DNA from: Natronococcus sp. CG52
GTDB lineage: Archaea; Halobacteriota; Halobacteria; Halobacteriales; Natrialbaceae
NCBI RefSeq assembly: GCF_023913515.1
Contig: NZ_CP099391.1
Location: forward strand, 310,001 to 374,000
Direction of reading: 5' to 3'
DNA length: 64,000 nt
In this document: piece after piece, positions 2,415 to 21,381 of the stretch
How the letters are laid out: each line of letters starts with the position of its first letter
Numbering within the stretch: the stretch's first letter is position 1
Made by a program: the position numbers and the translations under genes
The notes under the pieces: model-generated
The model's database searches: none
What the model saw: the letters and a program-made list of their open reading frames with translations, nothing else
Told to the model about the DNA's origin: nothing

Positions 2415-2489
2415 GGGCCCTTAGCTCAGTCTGGTTAGAGCGCTCGGCTCATAACCGAGTGGTCGATGGTTCGAATCCGTCAGGGCCCA
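2415..2489 (+). tRNA. tRNA with CAU anticodon, probably tRNA-Ile2 (could be annotated tRNA-Met)
   Basis: A complete cloverleaf: acceptor GGGCCCT pairs with AGGGCCC, the anticodon loop is CTCATAA (CAU), the T loop is TTCGAAT, and the discriminator is A. CCA is not encoded and there is no intron. The body closely resembles bacterial tRNA-Ile(CAU) and not an initiator. In archaea such a tRNA is converted to an AUA reader by agmatidine at C34. The 3' part (CCGTCAGGGCCC) is repeated at 10,585, so the gene is the attachment site of the accessory island. Confidence 0.9.
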
Positions 2490-2592
2490 TGACGCCCGTA
2501 AAACTGGCTCTGGGGCGTTGAATCGGCTAAATTTGGCATTTCACTCGTTTTCGGTTGAAGGGCTCATCCAGAATGTGAAGGGTTCTGAGCCA
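2477..2592 (+). repeat. Left copy of 116-bp direct repeat (attachment site, tRNA 3' end plus element end)
   Basis: The first 15 bases, CCGTCAGGGCCCATG, are identical to 10,585-10,599, and 12 of them are the 3' end of the tRNA. The following ~100 bp match 10,600-10,700 without a gap, at about 84% identity over the full 116 bp by eye. Both copies share GGCTAAATTTGGCATTTCAC and end at TTCTGAGCCA. A repeat longer than the tRNA core suggests two related elements inserted in tandem, each bringing the same end sequence. Confidence 0.8.
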
Positions 2593-2716: not shown

Positions 2717-2947
2717 ATGCCCAGTATCACGGTCAACGTGGACGACGACCTCAAAGCGCGAATGGAAAAGCACCCGGAGATCAACTGGAGCGAGGTCACG
2801 CGACAGGCCATCCAGGAGAAGATCGAGGCGCTCGAAATGATGGACGAACTCACCAGCGAGAGCGAACTCTCCGAGCGCGACGTTCAGGAAATCGCCGATA
2901 GAATCAACGAACGTGGACGCAAGCGCGTCGAAGAAGAATCGGCGTAG
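2717..2947 (+). CDS. Ribbon-helix-helix antitoxin, VapB-like
   Basis: A 76-residue protein beginning MPSITVNVDDDLKARMEKH, a typical RHH DNA-binding strand and helix, followed by a charged C-terminal tail that would wrap the toxin. An in-frame ATG at 2600 exists, but the extra residues are not RHH-like, so 2717 is chosen. It lies 9 bp before a PIN-domain gene, the usual antitoxin-toxin order, and just inside the left end of the integrated element. The pair may stabilise the island. The autoregulatory operator is not identified. Confidence 0.85.
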   Translation: MPSITVNVDDDLKARMEKHPEINWSEVTRQAIQEKIEALEMMDELTSESELSERDVQEIADRINERGRKRVEEESA

Positions 2948-2956: not shown

Positions 2957-3373
2957 ATGAAGCTGGTCATCGACGCCAACGTCGTCATCTCTGCACTCAT
3001 CGCTGATTCGAAGACGCGGGAACTCATCGTCACGCTCGAACCGGATCTTTTAACGCCCGCGTTTGTCCACGACGAAGTCGAGAACTACGAAGACCTGATC
3101 GTGGAGAAGTCCGGAATGGAGCCGGACCGAGTGGCACAGTTCATTGACCTCCTGTTTCAGTACATTGAGGTCGTTCCTGCCGACGACTTCTATCCGGCTA
3201 TCGAGAAGGCAGACGCAGCTATCGGAGACACCGACCCCGACGATGTGCTGTACCTCGCGTGTGCAATCGCCAGCAATGGGGCCATCTGGAGCGACGATTC
3301 TGACTTTGACAAACAGGACCTAGTCAATACGTACTCGACGAGTGACGTGATCAACTCGTTTGATACGCTTTAG
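2957..3373 (+). CDS. PIN-domain ribonuclease toxin, VapC-like
   Basis: A 138-residue PIN domain. Acidic residues expected to hold the catalytic metal are visible: D6 in VIDANVV, E40, D95/D96 in DTDPDDVLYL, and D113/D114/D116 near the end. Family members are Mg-dependent RNases that cleave tRNA or rRNA when the antitoxin is degraded. It follows the RHH gene by 9 bp and must share its transcript. Full length for the family. Confidence 0.85.
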   Translation: MKLVIDANVVISALIADSKTRELIVTLEPDLLTPAFVHDEVENYEDLIVEKSGMEPDRVAQFIDLLFQYIEVVPADDFYPAIEKADAAIGDTDPDDVLYLACAIASNGAIWSDDSDFDKQDLVNTYSTSDVINSFDTL

Positions 3374-3660: not shown

Positions 3661-3663
3661 GTC

Positions 3664-4455
3664 TTAACTAAAGGGGAATGACTTAAGATATTGACTGATG
3701 AGTTGTTCGGTTCCCAGATGAAGATATTCTGAGAGAGACTCTTCACTCATGTCTAATTCATTAGCAAGTTCTTGGATTGTGACTTCCTGCGAGGGGCTGT
3801 AATAGCCGTTTTCATATGCAGCCACAGTCGCTTTGAGTGCCGCTAACCGTGTCCGTGCCTCACTCGCGGTCAGTGAGCCAGTATAGATCGGCGAACCCGG
3901 TTCTATGTGACGGCCCCCCTCAGTAAGTAGACCTGTATCCACAGGAGTGAATCCAATATCTTCGATAAGACTCGAAACTACCCTTTTCGCCTCATCATCA
4001 TCCCCAGCGATAAATATCGCAAAACGATCATCCGGATCGGCCTCAAGCCGTTGTCCGTCTCGGAGATTTTCCCAATAAATAGAATTGAATGCCTTGACCA
4101 CTCTTGAGTCTTCGAGATGATCCGCAATGAGGTCCGTATGTGTCTTCCCTTCGTCGACTAGTCCATCACGCCCCGGATAATAATTTGAGGCACTGATAAC
4201 GATCTTATCACTGAGAGTGTCCGCAGGGAGGGATTTGTATGCATTGAACGGAATCGCCTCCACGACGACTTCGCCGAAATCGGCTGCTTCAGAGACGGTC
4301 CCCGCATGAGCGTTGCTTCCCAGATCGTCAACGAGATCGGTGAGTGTTTCTGGCCCCCGAGAATTGCTGATCATAACCTCGTGGCCTGCTTCAACGAAGT
4401 TCTGAGCGGCTGTACTCCCGACATTCCCTGCGCCAATCATTCCGATTTTCATCAA
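3664..4455 (-). CDS. NADP/F420-type oxidoreductase fused to a Bat-like helix-turn-helix
   Basis: A 263-residue protein in two parts. Residues 1 to about 205 form a Rossmann fold of the NADPH-dependent F420 reductase family (COG2085), with GAGNVG at 8-13 and a conserved middle (VVKAFNSIYWENL). From about residue 208 the sequence switches to an HTH_10/Bat pattern: AAYENGYYSPSQEVTIQELA, then NELDMSEESLSEYLHL. That tail is nearly the same motif as in the Bat-type regulator at 12.1 kb. The fusion suggests a cofactor- or redox-sensing transcription factor rather than a plain enzyme; this is inference. An HxlR-type regulator is divergent, 216 bp away. Start ATG at 4455; a second ATG follows directly. 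Confidence 0.8.
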   Translation of the reverse strand: MMKIGMIGAGNVGSTAAQNFVEAGHEVMISNSRGPETLTDLVDDLGSNAHAGTVSEAADFGEVVVEAIPFNAYKSLPADTLSDKIVISASNYYPGRDGLVDEGKTHTDLIADHLEDSRVVKAFNSIYWENLRDGQRLEADPDDRFAIFIAGDDDEAKRVVSSLIEDIGFTPVDTGLLTEGGRHIEPGSPIYTGSLTASEARTRLAALKATVAAYENGYYSPSQEVTIQELANELDMSEESLSEYLHLGTEQLISQYLKSFPFS

Positions 4456-4607
4456 TGGTCTCCCGTTCCAGCCTATGAGTGGGGGACGTGAAAAGCTACC
4501 AAGTTAGGAGTCTGGTTGCTACTACCGAGAGTGGAAGTGAGGGGATCAACTTATCAATCCATACCCGTCTCAATTGAAACCTGAAGTACGTGGCTCGCTC
4601 CTCCTGT

Positions 4608-4629
4608 AGTATCCTCAACTGAGGATACT
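4608..4629. promoter_or_regulatory. 22-bp perfect palindrome, candidate operator
   Basis: AGTATCCTCA and TGAGGATACT form a perfect 10-bp inverted repeat around AC. It sits 43 bp upstream of the HxlR-type gene and in the intergenic region shared with the divergent oxidoreductase. The position fits a regulator site next to or over the basal promoter of the HxlR gene. Probably the HxlR or the HTH-oxidoreductase binding site. Confidence 0.6.
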
Positions 4630-4649
4630 CCTCTTCGGAACATCTATTA

Positions 4650-4664
4650 CTACGAATTTCGTAG
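4650..4664. promoter_or_regulatory. Second inverted repeat, just before the HxlR start
   Basis: CTACGAA and TTCGTAG flank a single T, a perfect 7-bp inverted repeat ending 7 bp before the ATG at 4672. In a leaderless haloarchaeal transcript this would overlap the initiation region, a classic repressor position. It differs in sequence from the palindrome at 4,608. Confidence 0.55.
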
Positions 4665-4671
4665 TGGTGCT

Positions 4672-5031
4672 ATGAGCGAGGGCAAAGGAAGTCAAGGGTC
4701 AAAACGGGGTGAAGGGGTTGATGAGAGTACGCTCTTCTCACTTCTTGGGAAGGCACATACCTTAGCAATCCTCAATGAAATTGTCACTACAGACAAGCAG
4801 TCGATCCGTTTCGGCGAACTCCAAGATTCGCTCGAACTTTCGCCGAATACACTCTCTCGACGACTCGATGAACTTGTCGAAGTTGGATTTCTTGAACGTA
4901 CACAGTACGACGAAATTCCTCCACGAGTAGAATACGTAGAAACAGAAATGGTAAACGATCTCACGCCAGTTTTTCGAGGACTAGAGATATGGATGGAACG
5001 GCACGGATCAGATCAACTTGAGTGTTCCTGA
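4672..5031 (+). CDS. HxlR-family winged-helix transcription regulator
   Basis: A 119-residue single-domain regulator. The pattern LFSLLGKAHTLAILNEI, then RFGELQDSLELSPNTLSRRL and a wing region with RTQYDEIPPRVEYVET, is that of HxlR/MarR-like factors. The family's usual N-terminal cysteine redox sensor is not obvious; the only Cys is the penultimate residue. It is divergent from the oxidoreductase-HTH gene, and two palindromes lie in between, so it probably controls itself and that neighbour. Confidence 0.85.
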   Translation: MSEGKGSQGSKRGEGVDESTLFSLLGKAHTLAILNEIVTTDKQSIRFGELQDSLELSPNTLSRRLDELVEVGFLERTQYDEIPPRVEYVETEMVNDLTPVFRGLEIWMERHGSDQLECS

Positions 5032-5192
5032 GAATCAGTAGTTCATAAAGCCGTTAGCTGAAGCCTGTTCGGAACTCAATGTAATAGAGTGAGACGTTGT
5101 GGTCAATACAGGAGATAGAGGAATCGATCGGTATGAAGATTTCATCTACCGATTCGTACAATTACAACACAGATCGACTCTGACCCCCAGGA

Positions 5193-5933
5193 TTATACCT
5201 CGTCCGTATCGTGCGTGGCTCCACTAAATACCGTGTTCGTCAGCCACTCTTCCGCTCTGCGGAGCCGGTACCGAAGTGTCGATTTCGGAAGATCTAGTGC
5301 AGCAGCCACGTCACCCAGCGATGCCTCTCGCGGCGTTCCGTAGTACCCGCACTCAACAGCTACCTCGATGGCCTGGCGCTGGTCGTACGGGAGGTTCATC
5401 TGTGAGAGATCTTGCCTCGGCCAGGCCGACGGAGACCCGACCTGGCTCAGCGAGATATTAACGCCCTTCGGGAGCCCGTCCTGTAGCTGGTCGAAAATCT
5501 CACCGCCCTTCGTTTCACCCGGGAGTAGGACTCGCCATTCGTACACGTTCTCGCGCCGTCGTGCATCGAACAGCGCCCCGTTCCCGACGGTTTGGGTTGT
5601 GAAGAAGGGTATCGAGTGGCAGTATCTCCCGCCGGACGTATACGCGTAGATGAGCCGACTTCCATTTTCCTCTGCGACCACTTCGTACTCTCCCTCGATA
5701 GTGCAACCGGGGTGCTCACCGAGGCACTCGTTGCATACCGAGTGATCCGTCATCACCCGCTCTACTTCGTTGAGCGCGTCCTCCGGCCCGACGAACCGGT
5801 CAACGCGCCAGAGTCCCGCACTCGATCCGGCAATCCGGAGCGCACGGCCGACGAGCTCTGGATACGAGATGAACACGTCCATGAGCGAATCAGCGCCTCG
5901 TTCGTATCTGGCTGTGAAAACAAATTCGCGCAT
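5193..5933 (-). CDS. Bat-type (bacterioopsin-activator-like) HTH regulator
   Basis: A 246-residue protein from the ATG at 5933; the longer frame upstream lacks similarity. The N-terminal half is a sensory domain with Cys residues (HSVCNECLGEHPGCTIEG), possibly metal- or redox-binding. The C-terminal HTH_10 domain reads QRQAIEVAVECGYYGTPREA then LGDVAAALDLPKSTLRYRLR. It is divergent from a thioesterase/MFS operon 115 bp away, its likely target. The ligand is unknown. Confidence 0.85.
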   Translation of the reverse strand: MREFVFTARYERGADSLMDVFISYPELVGRALRIAGSSAGLWRVDRFVGPEDALNEVERVMTDHSVCNECLGEHPGCTIEGEYEVVAEENGSRLIYAYTSGGRYCHSIPFFTTQTVGNGALFDARRRENVYEWRVLLPGETKGGEIFDQLQDGLPKGVNISLSQVGSPSAWPRQDLSQMNLPYDQRQAIEVAVECGYYGTPREASLGDVAAALDLPKSTLRYRLRRAEEWLTNTVFSGATHDTDEV

Positions 5934-6048
5934 ATACAGTATCTGCCTCGGCTTTACAAATCTCTTCGGGGCCTTTGTGGAGGGTTTGGCCCGATAGTTA
6001 CGTATGCGCGAACATAGAATTACGTGTTTCTCCGCCCGACAGCGTAGC

Positions 6049-6633
6049 ATGAACGATCCGGCGACCCGAAACCTGGAAGTAGAACTACCCATTGACGTGG
6101 CCGAGCAGTTGGAAGATAACGACGAAACAGTCGCGGAAACGCTCGCGGCTCTCGCTAGGGATCATGTACAGATGCAAGAATCCATCAAAGCCTATACGGA
6201 CCGAAACGATGAGGGGGCAGGACCCGATTCGGACCCGCTGGAGACCAATCCACCGATCGCAGAGTTACTCGGATTTCAGTTAGAGGCGGCTGGAGACGGC
6301 GAAGCAGTCGTTACTCTCGAACCTGGACCGGAACACGCCAATCCGATGGGAACACTTCACGGTGGCGTTCTCTGTGACATCGGTGACTTGGCGATGGGGG
6401 CCGCCTACGCGAGTCGGCTCGACGACGATGAGTCGTTCACGACGCTCGAATTGGACGTCAAGTTCCGGCGGCCCGTCTGGGAGAAGCCGCTCACTGCGAC
6501 GGGGCAAGTCATGGATGCAGGACGAACCGTAGGGCTGGTCACGTGTGATGTCACCGGACCGGACGGGGAACTTGTCGCTCATCTCCAGAGTGTCTGTCTG
6601 ACGTTACGAGGCGAAGCCGCTGGGGGCCGATGA
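6049..6633 (+). CDS. PaaI-type hotdog-fold thioesterase
   Basis: A 194-residue protein from the ATG at 6049. A charged N-terminal leader of about 75 residues precedes a hotdog domain with the signature NPMGTLHGGVLCDIGDLAMG and the closing strand LDVKFRRPVWEKPL. These enzymes hydrolyse acyl-CoA thioesters, often of aromatic or hydroxylated acids. It overlaps the next gene (MFS) by 4 bp, so the two are co-translated. The N-terminal extension is longer than in ordinary PaaI and may bind a partner. Confidence 0.85.
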   Translation: MNDPATRNLEVELPIDVAEQLEDNDETVAETLAALARDHVQMQESIKAYTDRNDEGAGPDSDPLETNPPIAELLGFQLEAAGDGEAVVTLEPGPEHANPMGTLHGGVLCDIGDLAMGAAYASRLDDDESFTTLELDVKFRRPVWEKPLTATGQVMDAGRTVGLVTCDVTGPDGELVAHLQSVCLTLRGEAAGGR

Positions 6634-7952
6634 GCGAGGATTCAGATTCTGTCCATTCGGAGATACAAGCGACCCTCTCTGCGATGTGGACAGATCCATC
6701 CTACCGTCGGTGGTTGGGGTGGGCCGCCCTGTCTCTCGCGTTTCTCTCCGTTGGGCTCCACCGTACCTCGATGGGCGTGCTCGCGGAAGTCCTCGTAAGG
6801 ACGTTCAAGACGACCGGTACTGAGTTGGGGCTCCTGCACTCGTCGTTCTTCTATCTCTATGCTGCGCTCCAACTTCCTGCGGGAATTATCACTGATTACG
6901 CCGGGTCACGAAAGACGGCAGTGTATGGCACACTTGTTATGAGTGTCGGGGCAATGGTGTTCGCTGTCAGTCCCACTTATGCCGTTGCACTCGCTGCGAG
7001 GGCGCTCATCGGACTTGGTGCGAGCGTGCTGTATCTGGCAGTACTCCGATTCTGTGCGAACTGGTTTCGAGCGAACGAATTTGCGACGTTGTCCGGGCTG
7101 ACGCTCACCGTCGGTGCTCTGGGTGGAATACTCGCAACGACTCCGTTGGCGGTCGCCGTGAGTCAAATCGGATGGCGCGAATCAATATTTGGAATCGGAG
7201 TTACTGGGATTCTCACTGCGATACTTGTGTATACCGCGGTTCGTAATACCCCGATGGATGCCGGACTTTCCCAAATCGATGGCGTCCCGCCTGCCCCCAC
7301 CCAGAGTATTGCCGACATCAAATCGAATCTCTTTCACGTCCTCCAGACGCCCGTGACCTGGCTCCTCGGACTGTTTCTATTCTGTGGAATCGGCGTGGAT
7401 TTCACGATCTTCGGCCTCTGGGGAATCCCGTACCTCGTGCAGTCGTATGGTCTGACTGTTACCTCTGCATCATCATATGTTCTCGTTGCTGGGATCGGCT
7501 GGGTGTTCGGACCGATAGTCTTTGGAGTTGTCTCGGATCGGTTGGAAACGCGTATGCCGTTGGTTCTCGGTTCAGTCCTAGTCGTCACTCTCATTTGGGT
7601 GACGTTTGCTGTTTTCGGGACAGCAAACCTCCTCATAGTCGGGGCGCTGTTTTTGACCGTGCGGTTTATGGGCGGTAGTGGGGCGCTTACATTCACCGTT
7701 ATCAAAGAGCGGTTCGATCCGGCCGCCGCTGGGACCGCCATTGGAGCGATAAACTCGATGGGCTGGTTCGGTGCGGCAGTCTTTCCGGTACTGTTTGGGA
7801 CCATGCTCGATACATTCTGGACAGGGGAAACGATCAACGGAGCGCGTGTCTACACGGAGACTGGATACAGAATCGGATTTGCACTTGCGGCTGGTGCTGC
7901 AGTTCTCATGGTGGTGTGTGCATTCTGGGCCATACGGCGACTCGATAGCTAA
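6630..7952 (+). CDS. Major facilitator superfamily transporter
   Basis: A 440-residue membrane protein with about 12 hydrophobic segments. MFS marks include an acid/arginine loop after TM2 (DYAGSRKTAVYGT) and a glycine-rich TM4 (ARALIGLGASVLYL). Its ATG overlaps the stop of the thioesterase gene, so the two are translated together. This suggests exchange of an organic acid whose CoA ester is processed by the thioesterase. Substrate unknown. Confidence 0.85.
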   Translation: MSEDSDSVHSEIQATLSAMWTDPSYRRWLGWAALSLAFLSVGLHRTSMGVLAEVLVRTFKTTGTELGLLHSSFFYLYAALQLPAGIITDYAGSRKTAVYGTLVMSVGAMVFAVSPTYAVALAARALIGLGASVLYLAVLRFCANWFRANEFATLSGLTLTVGALGGILATTPLAVAVSQIGWRESIFGIGVTGILTAILVYTAVRNTPMDAGLSQIDGVPPAPTQSIADIKSNLFHVLQTPVTWLLGLFLFCGIGVDFTIFGLWGIPYLVQSYGLTVTSASSYVLVAGIGWVFGPIVFGVVSDRLETRMPLVLGSVLVVTLIWVTFAVFGTANLLIVGALFLTVRFMGGSGALTFTVIKERFDPAAAGTAIGAINSMGWFGAAVFPVLFGTMLDTFWTGETINGARVYTETGYRIGFALAAGAAVLMVVCAFWAIRRLDS

Positions 7953-8099
7953 TCGACAATCCTCACGATATCTTGACCCGAGTATCGAACAGTAGACGAG
8001 TCGGAGCGCCGCACAACAAAACGACATCGCCGACTCTACAGACGACCGCGGGATGCGGATAAACGAGGCGAGAGATTGGACCGCTGCTGAATTGGAGTG

Positions 8100-9101
8100 C
8101 TACTGGAACTGCGGGGCGATCTCGTCCCCGATCATCTCGTTCGTGCGACGCAGATTCTCAGTCCCGATGCCGGGATGATACGTGCGGAGAATCATGTGAA
8201 TATCATCACCCAAGACGTCCTCGTACTCATCAAGTTCTTCAGCGATTTCCTCGGGGGAGCCGACCATCGTATAGTCGCGGATTTCTTGTTTCCGCTCCTG
8301 TGAGAGACCATCGTTACCGAGACCGAACCACTCGTCGTATTTGCGCTGTACGTAGAATAGACTGTCCTGAATCGTTTCCCACGCCGCTTCCTCGGACTCG
8401 TCAACGTAGCAGTACCGTTGGATGTATACAGTGAAGTCGCCAGACTTCTTCTCCACGTCGCGGAGCCGCTCGATGTATCGCTTCCGTTTTGCGATATCGT
8501 CAAGCGAAGTCATCTCGGGGGCCGTCCAACCGTCGGCCATCTGCGCGGAACGGCGAACCGCATTTTTCGATAGACCTCCTATCGTGATCTCGGGGGCGAT
8601 ATCGGGCTTCGGTGTAATCATTGCATCCTCGGAGACATCTGCAAACAGCGGCTGGTAGTCAAGCGGACCATCGCTCCACGCGCGGCGCGCAATCTTGATA
8701 GCTTCCTCTGTCCGGTTCGCACGTTCCCGTTTTGGGATGCCGAAGTTTTTGAACTCAACGTCCCGATAGCCGTTTGCGACACCGAGCGTGAAGCGTCCGT
8801 TAGACAGCAGGCTAAGGGTCGCTGCATTCTCTGCCAATCGGACCGGATTGTGTAGTGGGGCGAGGATCATCGATGTACCGATTTGGATATCATCAGTGGC
8901 CGTTGCGAGGCCACCAAGCGTCGTGGACACCCCTGGTAGATAGGCGTCTTCTGCGAAGTGGTGCTCAGAAGCCCAAAGACTGTCCAGGCCGACTTCCTCA
9001 GCGTGTTTACCGAGCTCAATCATCTCATCGTAGATTTCGGTCATCGAACGATCATCGTCCGGTCGTCGTTGACCGCTAAACAATCCAGTTCCAATGCGCA
9101 T
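8100..9101 (-). CDS. Luciferase-like (LLM) flavin or F420-dependent monooxygenase
   Basis: A 333-residue TIM-barrel oxidoreductase beginning MRIGTGLFSGQ. Family segments are GLDSLWASEHHFAEDAYLPG and IQIGTSMILAPLHNPVRLAE, with ITIGGLSKNAVRRSAQMADG near the middle. Members use FMNH2 or F420H2. The nearby F420-reductase-family fold in the same element makes F420 attractive, but sequence does not decide. It is a single transcription unit between the MFS gene and the integrase module. Confidence 0.85.
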   Translation of the reverse strand: MRIGTGLFSGQRRPDDDRSMTEIYDEMIELGKHAEEVGLDSLWASEHHFAEDAYLPGVSTTLGGLATATDDIQIGTSMILAPLHNPVRLAENAATLSLLSNGRFTLGVANGYRDVEFKNFGIPKRERANRTEEAIKIARRAWSDGPLDYQPLFADVSEDAMITPKPDIAPEITIGGLSKNAVRRSAQMADGWTAPEMTSLDDIAKRKRYIERLRDVEKKSGDFTVYIQRYCYVDESEEAAWETIQDSLFYVQRKYDEWFGLGNDGLSQERKQEIRDYTMVGSPEEIAEELDEYEDVLGDDIHMILRTYHPGIGTENLRRTNEMIGDEIAPQFQ

Positions 9102-9266
9102 ACTCTACCATCATCTTCGGGAGCATTGATTCTGTTGAAGCCCTATTAGTCAATACTATCCTCGGTGAACCAGCCGTTAGGTAGTTCCTCTGTACTGACC
9201 GACCACTAACGCTCGCAGATCCTTCCTCAGTTTTGCATTCTAGCCCTGTGTCATTTTATTATTGTG

Positions 9267-9443
9267 CTAACTCGGAGCAGATATCTGCCCTAAATAAAAC
9301 GATACCAGTGATACAGCAGTGAGGATTAGCAGCATCAGCACCGTTTGTACCGAGAGGCTGTTAGTAATGCCAAGCACGCCGACTGCAAATAGCGCCATAC
9401 CAGTTAGCAGGATCACAAATTGGGAAAGTCGTAGGTTAGCCAT
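9267..9443 (-). CDS. Small integral membrane protein accompanying the integrase (58 aa)
   Basis: An ATG at 9443 opens a 58-residue frame beginning MANLRLSQFVILLTGMALFA. Two hydrophobic helices (about residues 9-26 and 33-50) are joined by GITNSLSVQ. It begins 21 bp after the integrase stop on the same strand. A homologue with about 80% identical residues lies at 21,382-21,555 beside the decayed second integrase. Conservation of the frame at both sites argues that it is a real gene. Function unknown; a role in element maintenance, immunity or lysis is speculation. Confidence 0.75.
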   Translation of the reverse strand: MANLRLSQFVILLTGMALFAVGVLGITNSLSVQTVLMLLILTAVSLVSFYLGQISAPS

Positions 9444-9464
9444 TAATCGAATCAGCTCATGGAC

Positions 9465-10478: not shown

Positions 10479-10584
10479 GGTTCTCTCACTGAAGGCCGAT
10501 GACAAGCGAGTTCTAAACGCCATTCTAGGCGCTTCTCGCGTCTACTAACAGCTGGCTGAGACCCCAGAACATTCTGGACGTTCC

Positions 10585-10700
10585 CCGTCAGGGCCCATGG
10601 CACCCGTAAAATCGGCTTTGAGGCACTGAAGCGGCTAAATTTGGCATTTCACTCATTTTCGGGCGAGGGGATCATCCAAAATTTGCGGGGTTCTGAGCCA
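10585..10700 (+). repeat. Right copy of 116-bp direct repeat (attachment site between elements 1 and 2)
   Basis: It carries the same CCGTCAGGGCCCATG core as the tRNA 3' end at 2,477, with a constant offset of 8,108 bp and no gaps over 116 bp. It is the right boundary of element 1 and, since its downstream part matches the left end of element 1, also the left boundary of element 2. The rest of the 10,479-10,787 gap contains only the motif at 10,740. Confidence 0.8.
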
Positions 10701-10739
10701 TCAATATTCGAAGGAATGACGCGTCCAGAGGTTTGGTCT

Positions 10740-10749
10740 ACATGTTCAT
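10740..10749 (+). promoter_or_regulatory. ACATGTTCAT motif upstream of the monooxygenase gene
   Basis: ACATGTTCAT starts 48 bp before the ATG at 10788. It differs at one base from exact ACATGTTCAC copies at 12,053, 14,273, 16,878 and 18,721, all in element 2. The following bases TCTTGAATCTGGATTAAG resemble those after the 18,721 copy. In a leaderless gene this is just upstream of BRE/TATA, an activator position. Confidence 0.5.
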
Positions 10750-10787
10750 CTGAATCTTGAATCTGGATTAAGTGCTATTACCTATTG

Positions 10788-12023
10788 ATGAACCGACAAA
10801 ATAACCGTAGCGCTAAACAAACGGCTAGCAATCAATCAGAGGTCTCAGATCAAAAAGCACTACTCATCGGGTGTGGGGTCGCAGGACCAGTCCTTGCGAT
10901 GTTTCTCCAACGGATTGGAGTCAAACCGGTTATTTTCGAAGGGAAACCCGAACCGCGAGACGATGCGGGTTTCTTCCTCAATCTGGCGGCGAACGGGACC
11001 GACGTACTCGAAACGCTTGGAATCGAAGAGCAGGTTCTTGAACATGGCCACCGATCGGAGAAACTGGTTTTTCAGAATCACGTAAACAAACGACTTGGTG
11101 AAAATCAGCAGGAAACCGTACTCATCAAGCGCGGGCACCTTACGAAGGCGCTCCGAGAAGAAGCGCTCGAACGTGGAATCACCATCGAGTTCGGAAAGCG
11201 ACTCACTGACGTCGAGATCCCGCACGAAGACATGGCCATCGCATACTTTGACGATGGAACAGAAGCCCACGGGAATTTCCTCGTCGGTTGCGACGGCATC
11301 CACTCCCAGACCCGGAAGTCACTCTTCCCAGGCGCACCTGAACCGGAGTACACCGGTATCATCGATTCCGGTGCATTCACGCGAAACGAGTCGGTCCCTC
11401 CATCCGACGGAATCATGCGAATGACCTTCGGCGTGAACGGGTTTTTCGGCTACCAGAAAGTCCCGACGGGGGAAATCTATTGGTTCGAGAATCACGAACG
11501 GTCGCAGGCACCGAGGCGTAGGGAGCTGGACGAAATCTCTCGGAGCCAGTGGAAAGACAAGCTGCTCGGGCTACACGAGCGAGATCACGAGCCAATTACC
11601 GAGATCATTCGTTCGACTGATGGGGACATCCGCAAGTGGCCAGTATACGACCTTCCATCGCTTTCGACGTGGCACCAAGACACGGTCTGTCTGATCGGTG
11701 ACGCTGCTCACGCGACGTCTCCACACGTGGGCCAAGGAGCGTCACTGGCGATGGAAGATGCAATTGTACTGGTAAAGTGTCTCCGAGACGTTGAGGGAGT
11801 GTCTGATGCCTTCACAGCGTTCGAAGAACTTCGGAGAGAACGAGTGGAAGCGATCGTCGAGATGTCTCGGGAGACGAGAAATCAGAAGGCACCATCGAAC
11901 ATGATAACTCGAAAATTTCGTGATCTCGTCCTTCCGTTTTTCCTCAAACAGGGAGTCGAACGCTTCGAGCAGATCTACTCATATCGAGTTGGGTGGGACG
12001 AACCGATTGAAGTAGTGGAATAA
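10788..12023 (+). CDS. FAD-dependent aromatic-type monooxygenase (PHBH/TetX family)
   Basis: A 411-residue class A flavoprotein. The ADP-binding GCGVAGPVLAMFLQRIG motif is near residue 28, and the second FAD motif CLIGDAAHATSPHVGQGASL is near residue 300. A ~20-residue polar leader precedes the fold. The start is ATG 10788 rather than the in-frame TTG before it. Such enzymes hydroxylate small, often aromatic compounds with NAD(P)H and O2. It lies at the left end of element 2 and shares an upstream motif with other genes there. Confidence 0.87.
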   Translation: MNRQNNRSAKQTASNQSEVSDQKALLIGCGVAGPVLAMFLQRIGVKPVIFEGKPEPRDDAGFFLNLAANGTDVLETLGIEEQVLEHGHRSEKLVFQNHVNKRLGENQQETVLIKRGHLTKALREEALERGITIEFGKRLTDVEIPHEDMAIAYFDDGTEAHGNFLVGCDGIHSQTRKSLFPGAPEPEYTGIIDSGAFTRNESVPPSDGIMRMTFGVNGFFGYQKVPTGEIYWFENHERSQAPRRRELDEISRSQWKDKLLGLHERDHEPITEIIRSTDGDIRKWPVYDLPSLSTWHQDTVCLIGDAAHATSPHVGQGASLAMEDAIVLVKCLRDVEGVSDAFTAFEELRRERVEAIVEMSRETRNQKAPSNMITRKFRDLVLPFFLKQGVERFEQIYSYRVGWDEPIEVVE

Positions 12024-12052
12024 GGTTGAAACGTTCCGCCGCGAGGACGCCA

Positions 12053-12062
12053 ACATGTTCAC
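12053..12062 (+). promoter_or_regulatory. ACATGTTCAC motif upstream of the Bat-type regulator
   Basis: An exact ACATGTTCAC 46 bp before the regulator's ATG at 12099. The same spacing before several element 2 genes suggests the regulator binds it and also controls itself. Confidence 0.5.
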
Positions 12063-12098
12063 CCGCGCCCCCAATAGGTCACACCTCCAAAGGTGCGT

Positions 12099-12743
12099 AT
12101 GCCACGAGTCCGTCTGAAAGTTGGACCAATGCCGGATATGATGACATTGGCCGAGGAGTTTCCAGACATTTCTCTCCGATTTTTAGCGAACTATCCGAAA
12201 AATGAGGACGTTTGTAGCGTACTGGAAGTTCGAACGGATGAAACAAAACGGTTCAAAGAAACGATGGAGTACTGGGACACGGAGACTGTAGAGATATTGC
12301 ACAGTGACGACGAGACGGTGGTCGTCATGCTAGAAGGGGAACCACCCGAGGGGTATTTCGTTTCTGAAGACATCGGATATCATCCGACGTCTCCCGTCGT
12401 CGCTCGTGACGGCTACCTGTTCATCGAGTTCGTTATGCCAGAATCGAAGATGGGTGACTTGTGGCAGTCTCTGGATGAGCGAGACGTCAATTATGACGTA
12501 TTGTCTATCACAGAAGGATACGATGTTGTTGATTCGCTCACAGCCCGCCAGCGCGAAATATTGACCGTTGCTATCGAACGAGGGTATTACGATAACCCGC
12601 GCAAATGTTCACTCACTGATCTTGCCAACGAACTCGACGTCAATAAATCGGTCATCAGCGGTGTCCTCCATCGGGCAGAAGGAGAGATCATCAAAGATGC
12701 TATCGGAGATCCACGAGATTCCGAGACAATAGCCCAACCATGA
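12099..12743 (+). CDS. Bat-type HTH transcription regulator of element 2
   Basis: A 214-residue regulator. The N-terminal ~150 residues form a beta-rich sensor similar to those paired with Bat HTH domains. The C-terminal HTH_10 domain reads LTARQREILTVAIERGYYDN then LTDLANELDVNKSVISGVLH. A GTG at 12093 is an alternative start. It has the repeated ACATGTTCAC motif upstream and is the only regulator within element 2, so it is the best candidate to read that motif. Confidence 0.85.
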   Translation: MPRVRLKVGPMPDMMTLAEEFPDISLRFLANYPKNEDVCSVLEVRTDETKRFKETMEYWDTETVEILHSDDETVVVMLEGEPPEGYFVSEDIGYHPTSPVVARDGYLFIEFVMPESKMGDLWQSLDERDVNYDVLSITEGYDVVDSLTARQREILTVAIERGYYDNPRKCSLTDLANELDVNKSVISGVLHRAEGEIIKDAIGDPRDSETIAQP

Positions 12744-12809
12744 AACTCGGATTTTCGGTAGTTATTCTCAGGAAGTAGTCCGCGTTCCAGATTTAGCCGA
12801 AGTGATGAA

Positions 12810-13718
12810 ATGAACAACTCTACGGATACAGCAATAGCCGCTACTGATCGGACACAATTACTGAAAGAATGGCATCTGACTCGTCGCGTAGCCGGTCACT
12901 GGCTACTGGTATCGACGGGAAGTTTCTTCGTCGTTATGATTGCGTTCGGTTGGATCTTTCACTATCTCACCGGACATCCTCCGGACGTAACCTTCTCTAT
13001 CGAAAGTGGGCGAGATGGGCTACTAACATTCGGGACGTTCGCTGCATTATTGCTCGCGGCAGTCGTTCCTCACGAATTGATTCACGGTGCAGCAATGTCC
13101 AGGTATGGTGGCAGACCTCGATACGGGGCGGGTGTCGCCTATTTCGTCCTCCCGTACGCGTATGCGACGAGCGACGAAGCGTACACACGCAATCAACTGT
13201 TGGTTATTCTCCTCGCTCCACTCGTTCTCATCTCACTTGTGGGTCTGGTGATAATGGTGGTCGTTCCATCGAGTTGGTTGCTCGTCCCGCTCGCTGCAAA
13301 CGCGGCTGGTTCCGTCGGTGACGTCTGGATGGCGATCTTGCTACTTGATTACTCGTCGAACGTTCGTATCGAGGAGACGGCCGACGGAGTCGGAATCGAA
13401 ATCTACGGCTCCGAAACCGATCGGCGGACGTATTCGTACGCGTCGCTCATCTGGAATACGGCTATAGGCTCGGCCGTCGTGTTCGGAACACTTGCTGGTG
13501 CTAGTATCTTCGCGGTCTTCGGTGCGCTCATATTCGGGGTTGAGTCGCTTACAGTCGGTGACCCCGAGACGTGGTGGTACGTACTCGATTACCACCGCGA
13601 CCCCAACGGAAGCGGTGCTAGCTTCGGAGTCGGGGTTCGATTAATCGGCGTTCTTAGCGTAGTTGGCGGCGGAAGCTATGCACTGCTAACCGTCGTTCGT
13701 GAACGCTATCCGAAATGA
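12810..13718 (+). CDS. DUF3267-type membrane zinc metalloprotease
   Basis: A 302-residue integral membrane protein with about six hydrophobic segments. The motif HELIH (residues 88-92) in a VVPHELIHGAAM context is a zincin-type metal site inside a membrane helix, as in DUF3267/YxxB-like putative peptidases. A second cluster (GSVGDVWMAILLL) could give the third ligand. Its target is unknown; in this context a regulator or a peptide made by the element is possible. Confidence 0.75.
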   Translation: MNNSTDTAIAATDRTQLLKEWHLTRRVAGHWLLVSTGSFFVVMIAFGWIFHYLTGHPPDVTFSIESGRDGLLTFGTFAALLLAAVVPHELIHGAAMSRYGGRPRYGAGVAYFVLPYAYATSDEAYTRNQLLVILLAPLVLISLVGLVIMVVVPSSWLLVPLAANAAGSVGDVWMAILLLDYSSNVRIEETADGVGIEIYGSETDRRTYSYASLIWNTAIGSAVVFGTLAGASIFAVFGALIFGVESLTVGDPETWWYVLDYHRDPNGSGASFGVGVRLIGVLSVVGGGSYALLTVVRERYPK

Positions 13719-13819
13719 ACCAGTTACCCAGTACCGGTCGAAAATCGCATCGTTACACGCCGCGTGACTGGGCGCTGCTAGTTCCTATTTAAGAGCACAC
13801 TCCCGCTCTACGCATGCTT

Positions 13820-14233
13820 CTAATTGTCAAAAACCACCGGTTCTAGTTTCGCACCGAGAATCCCGGCGATGATAGTGAGCAGGAACCGAACTCCCATCGT
13901 CAGATCGAGTGCGCCGAAGGCGAGCCCGATTGCGGCGACGAGGAATCCGACGGCGAATCCGTGCGTAGTGGCGGCCTTCGAATCAACTTTGCTGGCGACC
14001 CACGCCGCAGCCGGTATCGTGAGCAGAATTGTCACCAGGGGGAATAGCTGTGTCCCGACTACCGCGTTGAATTGGTCCAACGATCCCTGGTCGGGTTCGC
14101 CACCAGTCCCGAACGCGAGGAGGAACGTATAGGCGATGATCGCCACGATCAACAGGCCTAGTGAGAGAACGTGGGGTACGGTGCCGCCGATTACGATCCG
14201 TCTCCACTGCATGTCTGATAATTCCGTCATCAC
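13820..14233 (-). CDS. Hypothetical four-helix membrane protein
   Basis: 137 residues with about four predicted transmembrane segments (VLSLGLLIVAIIAYTFLLAF, LFPLVTILLTIPAAAWVA, a Gly/Ala-rich third and a fourth near the end) and a short cytoplasmic start. No recognised domain. A reverse-oriented copy of the element 2 motif lies about 40 bp upstream of its ATG (14,273-14,282), suggesting co-regulation with the other cargo genes. Confidence 0.7.
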   Translation of the reverse strand: MMTELSDMQWRRIVIGGTVPHVLSLGLLIVAIIAYTFLLAFGTGGEPDQGSLDQFNAVVGTQLFPLVTILLTIPAAAWVASKVDSKAATTHGFAVGFLVAAIGLAFGALDLTMGVRFLLTIIAGILGAKLEPVVFDN

Positions 14234-14272
14234 CTAGAAGACGGTCGCGCTGACGGTTGAGAATTGACGACC

Positions 14273-14282
14273 ACATGTTCAC
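14273..14282 (-). promoter_or_regulatory. ACATGTTCAC motif upstream of the membrane protein gene
   Basis: An exact ACATGTTCAC on the plus strand (GTGAACATGT relative to the gene), about 40 bp before the start at 14,233. The ACATGT core is itself palindromic, so the orientation need not matter. Otherwise the 14,234-14,504 gap has only a TATA-like GTTTATCTGG at about 14,471 before the next gene. Confidence 0.45.
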
Positions 14283-14504
14283 TTCGGGGCTGTGGGTCGT
14301 TACCGGACGCGGGATAGAGCTCCTCTAGGTAAACTGCTCCTCCGTACTCGCTCACTGTCGCTTACTTCTTGGGACTAGGACACCATCTCGACTGGTGCTG
14401 AATATAGCGGTTGTGCGCGTCGCAGCGATTCGGACGGTGCAAAATTGTACAACTGGCACACGGAGAGTACGTTTATCTGGAGAGGCAGCGACTGAAGAGC
14501 TAGA

Positions 14505-14951
14505 ATGCTGTTAGAAGAGACGACGGGTATGAAGGCGTCGCCGAGAGAGGTCTACCACTTTTTTGAAAAGATGGAGGAGAATTACGAGCGGTGGCATCCC
14601 GATCACATTACGTTCCGATGGGTCAATGGAGGTGCTTTAGAGGAGGGTGGAAAAGCCTATTTTGAGGAAGAGATCGCGGGAAAGATGCAGAAGAAAACGG
14701 TTCGATTCACGCGGATCGAACCGGATCGACACATCGAATTCGAACCGACGTCACGTGTGATCAAGCTTCTCATGCCAACCATCAGCTTCACTATCTCGCC
14801 TCACTCTGACGGCTGTGAACTTACGCAACACATCAAGGTACGAACAGGGCCGATCGGCGCTCGAATCAATCGACGGGAGTTCGAAGCCGTTCGAAAGCAT
14901 ATGAAAGAGGAAGGCGAAAATCTAAAACGCATCTTAGAAAGTGACGAGTAA
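14505..14951 (+). CDS. SRPBCC/START-like ligand-binding protein
   Basis: 148 residues with the helix-grip pattern of polyketide cyclase/SRPBCC proteins: a start MLLEETTGMKASPREVYHFF, WHPDHITFRW, and a long C-terminal amphipathic helix. Members bind or cyclise hydrophobic ligands. Next to a flavin monooxygenase and an exporter in the same element, it may act on a small hydrophobic product. A TATA-like element lies about 34 bp upstream. Confidence 0.75.
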   Translation: MLLEETTGMKASPREVYHFFEKMEENYERWHPDHITFRWVNGGALEEGGKAYFEEEIAGKMQKKTVRFTRIEPDRHIEFEPTSRVIKLLMPTISFTISPHSDGCELTQHIKVRTGPIGARINRREFEAVRKHMKEEGENLKRILESDE

Positions 14952-15173
14952 CCACTACCCGAGAGAATCGTTACGTCGCAAGTAGACCATCCGTAGCAGA
15001 GCGTCTCGTTCAGCCTCCTGTTCCGGTTCTGCCGACTACGCGGTGTGTGTCTTGCGGAGATTCGCATACCAAGGCAGAAGTATGAGCACGCGGATACGAG
15101 AGACGCTCCTTCCACCAATTATTCAGCCGACTATCTCTCACCGTTGACTCTTGATCCAGAGATTCGAAGATGT

Positions 15174-15938
15174 CTACGTGAGAATCCCCGATGCCAGTAA
15201 CGTGGCAATCATAATGGCACCGTTCACGACGTTGTGGGCGACGATCGGTGCGACCAGACTCTCCGTCTCGTAGTATGCGATCGCGTAGTAGATTCCGAGG
15301 ACGAACGCGAGCGCGAGCTGTGGGATCTGAAGGTGATAAATTCCCAGTGGAAACACCGTGAACCCGACGTGGGCGACGGTGAAAATCACCGCCGCAATGA
15401 GTCCTGATAGTGGGAGCACGTGGCCGAATACGGTGAACGTTCGATCGAAATACTGGGTCAGATACGTTTGAATGAATCCCCGGAACAGGATTTCCTCGGA
15501 GAGGCCCGAAACGATCCCCATGAAGACCAGGATCCCGATCACGTTCACGACAGTGACTTCGTACCCGAATTCCGGCGGTGTATCAGTCAGCAAAGGGACG
15601 AGCAACTCACCGAAAAACAGGAATAGGACTAGAACCGGAAAGAATCCCCGAGTGAGCAGCCGCTTCGACTCGCCCAGATTCTTCGTGTTCAGGCCCCACG
15701 AACGCCAGTCACCGCCGCTGAGATACCAGATACAGCCGAGTGCGAAACACAGCTGTACGAAGTGGTGGTCGATTGCGACGACCCACTGGACCGTCCGCAG
15801 ATCGCTATTGAGCGGCAGGAGCCCCCGGAATCGGACCACATCTGTGAGCCACTGGCTGATATAGTAGAGGGAAAGTATGACGGCGACGGCAAGCAGTTGT
15901 GGGCCCCACAGCCGGAGGCGTGGACGGGTCGTGGACAT
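15174..15938 (-). CDS. CPBP-family intramembrane metalloprotease (Abi/Rce1-like)
   Basis: 254 residues with about 7-8 hydrophobic segments and the CPBP motifs: EE at 148-149 with R153 (SEEILFRG), H190 in TVAHVGF, and H235/N239 in AHNVVNG. These are the glutamate/His/Asn catalytic set of Rce1-type proteases. In bacteria the family is often a bacteriocin maturation or self-immunity factor. It starts one base after the SdpI-like gene ends, so they form one transcript. Confidence 0.88.
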   Translation of the reverse strand: MSTTRPRLRLWGPQLLAVAVILSLYYISQWLTDVVRFRGLLPLNSDLRTVQWVVAIDHHFVQLCFALGCIWYLSGGDWRSWGLNTKNLGESKRLLTRGFFPVLVLFLFFGELLVPLLTDTPPEFGYEVTVVNVIGILVFMGIVSGLSEEILFRGFIQTYLTQYFDRTFTVFGHVLPLSGLIAAVIFTVAHVGFTVFPLGIYHLQIPQLALAFVLGIYYAIAYYETESLVAPIVAHNVVNGAIMIATLLASGILT

Positions 15939-16601
15939 TCAGGTACCTTCGGTATCGACTTCCCGTTCGATCCGTTCGTAGAGGTAATAAGAGTACACAA
16001 CTGTCACGACCGCGGTCAGGAACGCCGGAACGAGCAAGAAGTAGATCGCCCACTCACCGAACAAGAGCCCGACAAGCGCCAGGATCGCCGTAAATTTGAA
16101 CAGCCGGCCGCCGAGTTCGTGTGTTCGATACCACACCTCGTCGCTACTGAGCGTCCACGGAGTTCGAATCCCGACGAACCAATTCCGTTTGGCTTTCGTC
16201 AGGACGACCCCAATGTAGTAGAATAGGAGCGCTACTCCCGCGAGCAGCAGGTGCACGAAGGGAAACTCGTACCCGAGGTTGAACGCGAGAATTCCGGCGT
16301 GAACAAGAAAGAGAAAGGCAGTGAGGACGACGACGAACCAGTCGTAATACCGGCGAAAGACAGCAATGTTCTCCTGGAGTGGATCGATCCGCGGAAGCAC
16401 GGCGAATAGTCCGATGAGGACAGCCATGAGCGCAGGCGGAAGCCACAGCGCCTGTTCTTTCGGCATGGTACCGCTCGGCTCGCCGGCGGCGTCCCAGTTC
16501 GTAACGAGTTGTTCGGGTACCGAGTCCCCGACGAGATAACTCAAGAGTGCTGCGAGTACTGCAATTCCACCTGCTATTGCGAGCCTGTGCGCTGTCTTCA
16601 T
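15939..16601 (-). CDS. SdpI/DUF1648-family membrane protein
   Basis: 220 residues, 5-6 membrane segments. It has the DUF1648 N-terminal pattern (VTNWDAAGEPSGTMPKEQAL) and the SdpI C-terminal signature NWFVGIRTPWTLSSDEVWYR. In Bacillus, SdpI gives immunity to the SdpC toxin and takes part in signalling. It is directly followed by a CPBP protease gene. The pair suggests immunity or signalling in this element; no SdpC-like toxin was found. Confidence 0.82.
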   Translation of the reverse strand: MKTAHRLAIAGGIAVLAALLSYLVGDSVPEQLVTNWDAAGEPSGTMPKEQALWLPPALMAVLIGLFAVLPRIDPLQENIAVFRRYYDWFVVVLTAFLFLVHAGILAFNLGYEFPFVHLLLAGVALLFYYIGVVLTKAKRNWFVGIRTPWTLSSDEVWYRTHELGGRLFKFTAILALVGLLFGEWAIYFLLVPAFLTAVVTVVYSYYLYERIEREVDTEGT

Positions 16602-16877
16602 ACGCCAGCGTTCTCACTACAGCGTATCAATGTTCACCACTTCTCGATTCACACGAGCCGGAGGACCACACTCCCAATGACGGTGATGTGACCAAAGACA
16701 CGGAAGAATCTGCGAACGGTCCTTGGAGTCAGTCACCCGGATCCGCGCAGATGATCGTCTTTCCTATAGTAACAATTGAAACGATTCACATGCTGATCGC
16801 CGATTCATCTGGTGATCAGGTGTGCAATGACGTGCAGTGGCTACTATATTTGATCTTCAGAGCTGAGTTCTATGGCT

Positions 16878-16887
16878 ACATGTTCAC
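16878..16887 (+). promoter_or_regulatory. ACATGTTCAC motif at the ABC permease start
   Basis: An exact ACATGTTCAC overlapping a possible ATG of the permease. It lies about 45 bp before a GTG at 16925 in the same frame, matching the motif-to-start distance seen at other genes, which would favour that GTG. A TATA-like CTATATTTGA at about 16,846 instead favours starts at 16,880 or 16,892. A one-off variant (ATGTTCACC preceded by CA) lies at about 16,630, upstream of the SdpI gene. Confidence 0.4.
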
Positions 16888-16891
16888 CACA

Positions 16892-17743
16892 ATGGTGAGA
16901 CTCATTGGTGAGCGACCTTCTCTTGTGTATCCCAATCCAACCACTGTACGATGGACGCACCAAGTCGGTGCATTCACGCAACGGTACCTTCGGAGTCTTT
17001 CCCGAAGCAAACTCATACTCGCTCTCGCAATCGCCTGGCCAGTAGCGTGGTACCTGCTAACGATGGAATTTTTCATTCCATCGGAAGAACAGGTCGGAGC
17101 TATCAAAGCAAACAACGCGATTTCGTTCGGTCTCTTTGGCGCGTTTACCGTCACCGTTGCGGTTTTTGCAGGAGCGTTCGCGGGAGATCTCGAATCCGGT
17201 CGCTTCCGCATGTTGCGATCGCTGCCGATCTCGCCAACAGCGGATCTGACGGGTCGATTTCTCGCCGGGCTGGCGATCGCGGTCCCGTCGTTTCTCGTGA
17301 CGATCGGCGCGGGATACGTCCACGGCGCAACCTACAGCCCTCGCGGGCTCCTTTCGATTCCGGTCGCGTTTCTGACGCTCTTCGTGTTCTGTCTCATTGC
17401 GATGGCACTTTCGATGGGACTCGCAGTGCTCATCACGAAACCGGAGTATATCACGACGCTCGCGGTCGTCATCGTCATCATGTCGTTTTTCCTCACGGGG
17501 TTCAACGGCGTCCAGCCGGCGATGCTGGCCGAAAATCAAGCGCTCGTCAACTATGTCCCGAACGCACTCGCAGCCCGCGTTCAAATTTTCTATCTGACCG
17601 ATGCTGATTTCGCTCACTGGGGGTTGACGCCGCCGGCGATGCCTGATGGAATCGAACATTTGGGACTGCTCGTCGGATACGGCCTCGTACTGCTCGTCGC
17701 GTCCGTCGTCGTTATGCAGCGGGTTGCCTATCGGAGGGAGTGA
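16892..17743 (+). CDS. ABC-2-type membrane permease
   Basis: About 283 residues with six hydrophobic segments and the ABC-2 pattern (long loop after TM1, GRFRMLRSLPISPTADLTGR coupling region, paired helices at the end). The open frame continues upstream to 16,547, but that part is not protein-like. ATG 16892 is used, with 16880 and GTG 16925 as alternatives. The next gene, an ATPase, begins at the stop, so they form one exporter. Substrate unknown; likely a peptide, lipid or drug-like molecule. Confidence 0.8.
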   Translation: MVRLIGERPSLVYPNPTTVRWTHQVGAFTQRYLRSLSRSKLILALAIAWPVAWYLLTMEFFIPSEEQVGAIKANNAISFGLFGAFTVTVAVFAGAFAGDLESGRFRMLRSLPISPTADLTGRFLAGLAIAVPSFLVTIGAGYVHGATYSPRGLLSIPVAFLTLFVFCLIAMALSMGLAVLITKPEYITTLAVVIVIMSFFLTGFNGVQPAMLAENQALVNYVPNALAARVQIFYLTDADFAHWGLTPPAMPDGIEHLGLLVGYGLVLLVASVVVMQRVAYRRE

Positions 17744-17745
17744 AA

Positions 17746-18651
17746 ATGACAATACTCGAAGCCACAAACGTACACAAGCGATTCGGTGATGAACAAGTTC
17801 TTCGGGGCATCGATATGCTCGTCGAAGATGGCGAGATCGTCCTCTTGATGGGACCGAACGGCGTCGGAAAATCGGTCCTTATGTCCTGTCTCGCAGGGAG
17901 TTCTCGGATAACGGATGGAAGTATCACACTGTTCGACTCGTACGATCCCGTCGAAGCGCAGTCGATGATGAGCGTAATGAAACAAGGGGAGATGACCGAC
18001 CCGGACCTCACCGGTCGAGAGAACGTCGAGTTCTACCGTCGCCTCCATCCGCGTGGGGCCGGTGACGTCGGACGAATACTCGAACGACTCGAAATGGAAG
18101 ACGACGCCGATCGTCTCGTTCGGACGTACTCCGGCGGGATGAAACGAAAAATCGAAGTCGCAATCGCGCTCTCGGTGGACGTTCCGTTGTATCTCCTTGA
18201 CGAACCCGTCGCGGAACTCGATCTATCGATGATTCGGGTGTTGCATGACATGATCCTCGAACGTCGGGAGGCCGGAGCTGCGTTCCTCATCACCAGCCAC
18301 ACGCCACTCGATGCGCAGATCGCCGATCGTATCGCTTTCGTTCAGAACGGACGCATCGTCAAAAGTAGCGCACCAGACGCGCTACTCGAAACACTTCCAT
18401 CCGTCCTTCGGGTTCGCGGCGGCGTGCCACCCGAAGAGTTACTCGTTGGTGGACGTGCGTTCCATCGCGGCGATGAAGTTCGTGGGTTCCTCCCCGAGGG
18501 AACCTCGCTCGATGACGCGAAGAGTGCACTGGACGCGAGTTACGAGTACGCACTCGTTGAAATCGATCGACCATCCTATACAGATATGTTCAACTATTAC
18601 ACCTACCTCGAACCGTCGGCAGCAGAGGGCATTCCTCCCATCGTAAAGTAA
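17746..18651 (+). CDS. ABC exporter ATP-binding protein
   Basis: 301 residues. Walker A GPNGVGKS at 36-43, Q-loop Q80, signature SGGMK at 129-133, Walker B/E LLDEP at 150-154, and a switch His in ITSHTPLDA. A ~75-residue C-terminal extension follows, as in ABC-2 exporter ATPases. GGAGGGA lies about 9 bp before ATG 17746, an unusually good ribosome-binding site for a haloarchaeon, fitting translation inside an operon with the permease. It is the motor of that exporter. Confidence 0.9.
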   Translation: MTILEATNVHKRFGDEQVLRGIDMLVEDGEIVLLMGPNGVGKSVLMSCLAGSSRITDGSITLFDSYDPVEAQSMMSVMKQGEMTDPDLTGRENVEFYRRLHPRGAGDVGRILERLEMEDDADRLVRTYSGGMKRKIEVAIALSVDVPLYLLDEPVAELDLSMIRVLHDMILERREAGAAFLITSHTPLDAQIADRIAFVQNGRIVKSSAPDALLETLPSVLRVRGGVPPEELLVGGRAFHRGDEVRGFLPEGTSLDDAKSALDASYEYALVEIDRPSYTDMFNYYTYLEPSAAEGIPPIVK

Positions 18652-18720
18652 TAGTTGACTGCCACTCGCAGAGCCAAACTCCGCGAACCCACACCGGGTT
18701 CTGCTTTCTGGTCAAGAGCA

Positions 18721-18730
18721 ACATGTTCAC
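18721..18730 (+). promoter_or_regulatory. ACATGTTCAC motif upstream of the multicopper oxidase
   Basis: An exact ACATGTTCAC 51 bp before ATG 18772. The following bases (CAGCATCTTGAACGGAATCT) resemble those downstream of the 10,740 copy, so the two promoters may share more than the core motif. Confidence 0.5.
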
Positions 18731-18771
18731 CAGCATCTTGAACGGAATCTGAATCCAGATCCGAGTATCGC

Positions 18772-20322: not shown

Positions 20323-20323
20323 C

Positions 20324-20752
20324 GTGAGTTTGGATCCCCAGCCGGACTCGGAGAGAACACTGGTCGGCGCTCTCACCAGTGAGTCGGTTACTCGCCTGCA
20401 ATATTTCACAGCTGGTCTTGCGTTCGTTGTGGAACTGCTCTATCTCTGGGTAGCGGCGGAGGCGCTGTTATTCTGGCCAGTACACGGGGCGTTTTTTGCA
20501 GCGCTTGCTATTGGACAGGGCCTACTGGCTGTCAACTTGTTATTCGATCCCGGTCGGTGGACGTTCAGACTGGGAGTTCTATTCAACGCTGGTCTTCTCG
20601 TGTTCTGGGTTCTCGTTCGTGCCATTGAGACTACGTTCCCAGTATGGATTATTTCTGTCCGAACCCCTGTTGATGGCGTTGAATACATCGTGATGGCACT
20701 AGTACTCTCACTACTACTGTCCTTAATATGGATGTGGAATAATTCGAACTAA
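20324..20752 (+). CDS. Hypothetical membrane protein downstream of the multicopper oxidase
   Basis: 142 residues, four hydrophobic segments (FTAGLAFVVELLYLWVAAEA and others) after a polar start. The initiation codon is GTG 20324, one base after the oxidase stop, so the two are translationally linked. No recognised family; a membrane partner of the oxidase is possible. Confidence 0.7.
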   Translation: MSLDPQPDSERTLVGALTSESVTRLQYFTAGLAFVVELLYLWVAAEALLFWPVHGAFFAALAIGQGLLAVNLLFDPGRWTFRLGVLFNAGLLVFWVLVRAIETTFPVWIISVRTPVDGVEYIVMALVLSLLLSLIWMWNNSN

Positions 20753-20841
20753 CCGCAGTAAAGCCACGCCGAGAGGATACCGCGTTACGTACAGGTGACG
20801 CACGCATCGTTCTGGACGGAGGATCAATATGGGATATATTC

Positions 20842-21279: not shown

Positions 21280-21381
21280 ATCAACTATCTCGAAAGTGAG
21301 ACGTTCCACTGTCACATTAACATTCCGCCACAGCGTTGAGTAGGCATTTGAACATACGGATAGTTCTGATCACTTGCAGTA

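Follow-up and report, generated by a model that had tools for sequence, protein, structure and literature searches.

A small gene for a predicted membrane hairpin in the integrase module of haloarchaeal islands at tRNA-Met

Introduction

Directly behind a tyrosine integrase gene in the window (the whole 64,000-nucleotide stretch of Natronococcus sp. CG52 DNA analyzed here) lies a short reading frame, which raises the question of whether the frame is a gene and, if so, what its product does for the element that carries it. A sequence-only reading of this DNA had described a 58-codon, two-helix membrane gene kept under selection of its own, and had suggested competitor exclusion or lysis among its possible roles.

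Results

The frame begins with an ATG at 9443 on the minus strand, 21 bp past the stop of the intact 352-aa integrase and in the same orientation, and encodes a protein of 58 residues (MANLRLSQFVILLTGMALFAVGVLGITNSLSVQTVLMLLILTAVSLVSFYLGQISAPS). The plus strand of 9267-9443 is full of stops and holds no open frame. AlphaFold2, run on 14 homologues, placed helices at residues 2-26 and 32-55 with a mean pLDDT of 84, and the hydropathy of the protein agrees with this two-helix hairpin; the predicted product is a small membrane hairpin. The description of a two-helix membrane gene directly after an intact integrase was thus borne out, with the strand fixed as minus. GC content near the gene is 47%, compared with 60% for the whole window. 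No family was retrieved for the protein from Pfam, NCBIfam, PHROGs, PADLOC (which has no model for it), or the PDB, and in Natrinema pellirubrum pNATPE02 the frame has been left unannotated. With the codon evidence given below, this is a real, constrained gene without a match in any family library.

Nucleotide conservation extends about 25-30 bp beyond the 57-codon stop of the small gene. A separate DNA signal past this stop was considered and is unneeded, since some copies read on to a 61st codon. An attachment site inside the ORF was also considered as the cause of its conservation and was ruled out because att lies on the opposite side of the integrase.

Table 1. Features of the islands at tRNA-Met, in window coordinates.
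Feature	Position	Strand	Evidence
tRNA-Met (CAT), integration target; 3' end is attL	2415..2489	+	ARAGORN; conserved in congeners
attL core CCGTCAGGGCCCATG	2477..2491	+	Exact 15-bp direct repeat with 10585-10599
VapB-like antitoxin (putative)	2717..2947	+	Place before the PIN-domain gene; no Pfam match
PIN-domain (VapC-like) toxin	2957..3373	+	Pfam PIN_2, E 2.3e-33; conserved beside integrase modules
Island A cargo: F420-oxidoreductase/HTH_10 (-), HTH_10 regulator (-), thioesterase (+), MFS transporter (+), luciferase-like monooxygenase (-)	3664..9101	.	Pfam; absent from DNA alignments of other islands
Small gene, two-helix membrane protein (predicted), 58 aa	9267..9443	-	ORF, homologues, codon model, AlphaFold2
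SNJ2-type tyrosine integrase, intact, 352 aa	9465..10523	-	Pfam PF00589 and PF02899; 45% identity to SNJ2 integrase
attR of island A, also attL of island B	10585..10599	+	Repeat; 61 bp from integrase start
Cargo of tandem island B: FAD monooxygenase, HTH_10 regulator, multicopper oxidase, others	10600..21380	.	Pfam; missing in congeners
Second small-gene copy, frame open	21388..21555	-	79% identity to the 9267-9443 copy
3' fragment of island B integrase, ~45 C-terminal residues	21581..21715	-	91% identity

The features of the region are collected in Table 1. Because the 3' end of tRNA-Met recurs exactly at 10585-10599, the limits of island A can be set at 2490-10599 (8.1 kb), with the PIN-toxin pair at its left end, variable cargo in the middle, and the small gene and integrase at its right. 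Island B starts at 10600 with a left end resembling that of island A, and bears the second small gene and a truncated integrase. From each 15-bp repeat, 116 bp (2477-2592 and 10585-10700) are 84% alike, and the roughly 100 bp past the att core common to both left ends might contain arm sites for the integrase or serve some other function of the island end. In three congeners (G092, G087, and G089), DNA that matches window 24422-25486 lies no more than 0.9-1.3 kb past tRNA-Met, and by comparison with these near-empty sites roughly 21-22 kb is inserted at tRNA-Met in this genome. Together, the direct repeat and the near-empty sites imply past integration activity of the integrase. A third, divergent integrase remnant (23163-23588, plus strand; 41% identity over the C-terminal 140 residues) lies close to the right-hand end of the insertion, on the strand opposite to the other two integrases, and is perhaps the relic of a third island.

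The intact integrase matches PF00589 (catalytic, E 7.5e-13) and PF02899 (Phage_int_SAM, N-terminal, E 1.9e-07), and shares 44.9% identity with the SNJ2 integrase across 95% of the query. Membership of the SNJ2-type family requires an identity of 30% or more to its members across 60% of the protein (PMC8371274); by both domains and identity with coverage, it belongs to this family. The small gene belongs to the right-end module of tRNA-Met-integrated islands with such SNJ2-type integrases. The att core precedes the integrase elsewhere as well: it is unchanged in G090, G040, and G037 and carries a single mismatch in G058 and G094. Related islands lie in tandem at the tRNA-Met site in this genome and, at loci L056 and L060, in G094 and G040; both copies carry the small gene here and in G040, and in G094 one integrase copy has it and one does not. 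We found no literature on tandem integration.

Cargo varies between islands. Copies of the VapB-like gene, 92-96% identical, stand beside the integrase module in three other genomes; the VapBC-like pair adjoins attL here and in G094, and its neighbor in G040 and G047 is the small gene. In island A we identified no virion or replication genes; its six Pfam-matched genes are metabolic, regulatory, or toxin genes, and the gene block of a pleolipovirus provirus (spike, VP3-like membrane protein, NTPase) is not found among these six. The same island left end also occurs just after tRNA-Met in another congener, G093 (L098), 92% identical over 978 bp and including the VapBC-like pair; G093 has no small-gene homologue, and the best integrase match there reaches only 51% identity.

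A search with tblastn using the 58-mer recovered the second window copy at E 8e-24, and ten further loci with 45-82% identity to the small protein were found in other genomes among the 125 genomes of the family searched (G040, two; G090; G047; G058; G065; G094, two; G037; G098). Counting both window copies, this makes 12 loci in 9 Natrialbaceae genomes, and all 12 lie directly behind an integrase of the same clade or its remnant, as would be expected of the proposed association with integrases. The frame is open at nine of the 12 loci and broken at three, by a nonsense codon in Natrinema hispanicum (G058), where the integrase is intact, by a frameshift in G094 contig 2, and by truncation in G098. 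In the G037 copy, both helices contain acidic residues and hydropathy is lower. In the integrase tree, all small-gene copies fall within one clade (bootstrap 100), inside which support is low. Five close integrases of that clade have no small gene behind them (G034, G022, G044, G083, and one G094 copy), and the distribution fits one gain at the base of the clade followed by several losses. Given these five integrases and the three broken copies, the gene is dispensable, an optional accessory. Viral contigs scanned with the integrase yielded nothing, and phage records contained no homologue of the small gene.

Codon maximum likelihood over the nine open frames gave an omega of 0.416 (kappa 5.55, lnL -748.80), compared with a lnL of -759.36 for an omega of 1 at the best grid kappa, a 2dlnL of 21. 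Since omega is significantly below 1, the small gene is under constraint at the protein level. For the pair of window copies NG86 gives a dN/dS of 0.16, but this method ignores transition bias, and the likelihood value (0.42) is therefore the one to trust; neither is near 1, the value that would have spoken against selection. By the codon comparisons and the distribution, the small-gene frame is under selection and travels with one integrase clade.

The sequence-only reading had argued for selection differently, from an open homologue surviving behind a dead, decaying second integrase. That homologue is indeed open, but the integrase beside it is truncated rather than gradually decayed. Compared with G040, the nearest relative, the 44 codons of the island B fragment have a pN/pS of 0.07, lower than the 0.20 of the small gene there; the integrase was killed by a single truncating event, and its leftover codons are intact and strongly constrained. 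There was thus no long decay of the recombinase for the small frame to outlive. The reverse is seen in G058, where the integrase is intact and the small gene broken. A 340-codon gene is also about six times likelier to take a hit than a 58-codon gene. As the contrast between survival and decay carries little weight, the argument for selection rests on omega.

For a wider search we used a profile with three distant members (G362, G185, and G410), which added likely distant homologues in G022, G201, G143 (two), and G375, with G282 borderline. The better distant matches reach single-genome E-values of 1e-7 to 1e-9, which call for caution: the profiles are short and hydrophobic, and a family unrelated to the small protein also scores with this query, up to about E 0.002. 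Matches at E of about 0.002-0.01 (L014-L019, also L003 and L004) were rejected as due to composition; they lie in ordinary chromosomal settings and come from another small membrane family with MLELALLFFVIA, which we take to be DUF1328-like. None of the distant homologues lies directly behind an integrase, and several lie within islands. The G022 homologue is 270 bp from tRNA-Pro, beside a gene with weak matches in the PADLOC defense library, and the G282 homologue is near a similar gene; the G362 homologue adjoins tRNA-Arg, and that of G185 is on a Halorhabdus plasmid. A PF00589 integrase lies within about 20 kb of five of the nine distant homologues, against an expectation of about 10%, but integrases cluster and this proximity is only suggestive. 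Such homologues, alone in islands, point to an island role independent of recombination. Two distant homologues (L086 8537-10768 and L091 2835-5099) are near the same HATPase-like gene, possibly a defense gene.

Discussion

We tentatively propose that the small protein is an island-borne membrane effector, acting most likely against unrelated competing elements or viruses. With the gene 21-25 bp behind the integrase in the same orientation, there is little room for a promoter, and it would accordingly share a transcript with the integrase and be translated from it. The protein would then insert into the host membrane and, in what is the least certain step, help the island to persist without taking part in recombination. 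Most plausibly, it would do so by interfering at the membrane with competitors unrelated to the island, whether elements or viruses; examples would be pleolipoviruses such as SNJ2, whose integration site is the same tRNA-Met. Pleolipoviruses enter by membrane fusion. In favor of an effector are the place of all 12 copies behind one integrase clade, the value of omega, the predicted hairpin, the island limits with the SNJ2 att core, and the distant homologues in islands; counting against it are the close integrases without the gene, the three broken copies, the tandem islands here and in G040 that both carry it, the caution due to the distant matches, and the absence of the protein from the PADLOC models. 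A wider claim, that the family as a whole is an island-borne membrane defense or exclusion protein, found in SNJ2-type modules and alone in tRNA-associated islands and blocking competing viruses such as pleolipoviruses, strikes us as improbable.

A somewhat less likely alternative is that the gene is a near-neutral hitchhiker, an old gene that became trapped between integrase and cargo and, being only weakly constrained, is gradually being lost. This would account for the five close integrases without the gene, for the nonsense, frameshifted, and truncated copies of G058, G094 contig 2, and G098, and for the acidic residues and lower hydropathy of the G037 copy; however, an omega of 0.42 over the open copies (2dlnL 21 against an omega of 1) and nine open frames of 12 speak against it.

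A hydrophobic protein of this size might also stabilize the island through post-segregational killing, like type I toxins, which are toxic small membrane peptides paired with an antisense RNA, and the islands do bear another addiction-type module in the PIN/VapBC-like pair. Nevertheless, no antitoxin partner gene recurs beside the small gene, and broken or missing copies are tolerated, and we regard a membrane toxin or addiction factor as unlikely. There is likewise little probability, in our view, of a recombination cofactor that tethers or regulates the integrase. The strict place behind one integrase clade would suit such a cofactor, and Orf2 and Orf3, in the operon of the SNJ2 integrase, do stimulate recombination (PMC8371274), but these differ from the small protein in size (111 and 140 aa), domains, and upstream position. 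A membrane hairpin would also be an unusual cofactor, there are close integrases without the gene, and distant homologues occur away from integrases.

Self-exclusion, by which an island would bar a further copy of itself, is one form of the suggested exclusion role and would be in keeping with a membrane location and a shared target site. It is very unlikely, given that related islands stand in tandem at the same site in three genomes (this one, G040, and G094) and that in two of these both islands carry the gene. The suggested lysis or holin-like function is hardly credible despite the two helices and small size, as the 8.1-kb island has no identified virion or replication genes and the protein no PHROG match.

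Whichever role applies, the integration module of a widespread family of haloarchaeal integrases gains a conserved gene that had been overlooked. The analysis also delimits a compact kind of island, in the order att, PIN-toxin pair, variable cargo, small membrane gene, integrase, and att, which shares its tRNA-Met site with a known virus. If the gene is only a hitchhiker, it remains a useful annotation.

Comparison with known systems

Two-helix holins and small hydrophobic toxins are small proteins that form two-helix hairpins, and the small protein resembles them in size and hairpin. It differs in having no sequence match to them and no virion or antitoxin context; holins belong to phage lysis cassettes, and neither a PHROG match nor virion genes were identified here. 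The plasmid pHK2 and the virus Halfgib1 carry integrases of the same family (38-45% identity) and have no small-gene homologue; in Halfgib1, unlike the island, the integrase is the last gene before att.

The closest comparison is with the betapleolipovirus SNJ2 (int, orf2, orf3), which shares with the island an integrase 45% identical and is reported to have the same tRNA-Met target (PMC5867852). In the SNJ2 genome, a 13-bp core, CCGTCAGGGCCCA (the first 13 bases of CCGTCAGGGCCCATG), lies 48 bp after the integrase stop and, judging from its position, is expected to be the attP. The 3' end of the SNJ2 integrase faces this core, whereas the island integrase faces att, 61 bp away, with its 5' end, so that the small gene points into the island. 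The island genes checked are not pleolipoviral, and the SNJ2 genome contains no match to the small protein better than E 0.8. Its accessory genes are unrelated and lie upstream of the integrase, whose operon they share (PMC8371274); Orf2 and Orf3 are soluble-type proteins (coiled-coil and MarR-like), while the small protein has 58 aa, is a predicted membrane hairpin, and is encoded downstream. Immunity of the lambda type has not been reported from mobile elements of archaea (PMC8371274), which makes a membrane protein encoded beside an integrase a testable candidate for a part in conflict between elements.
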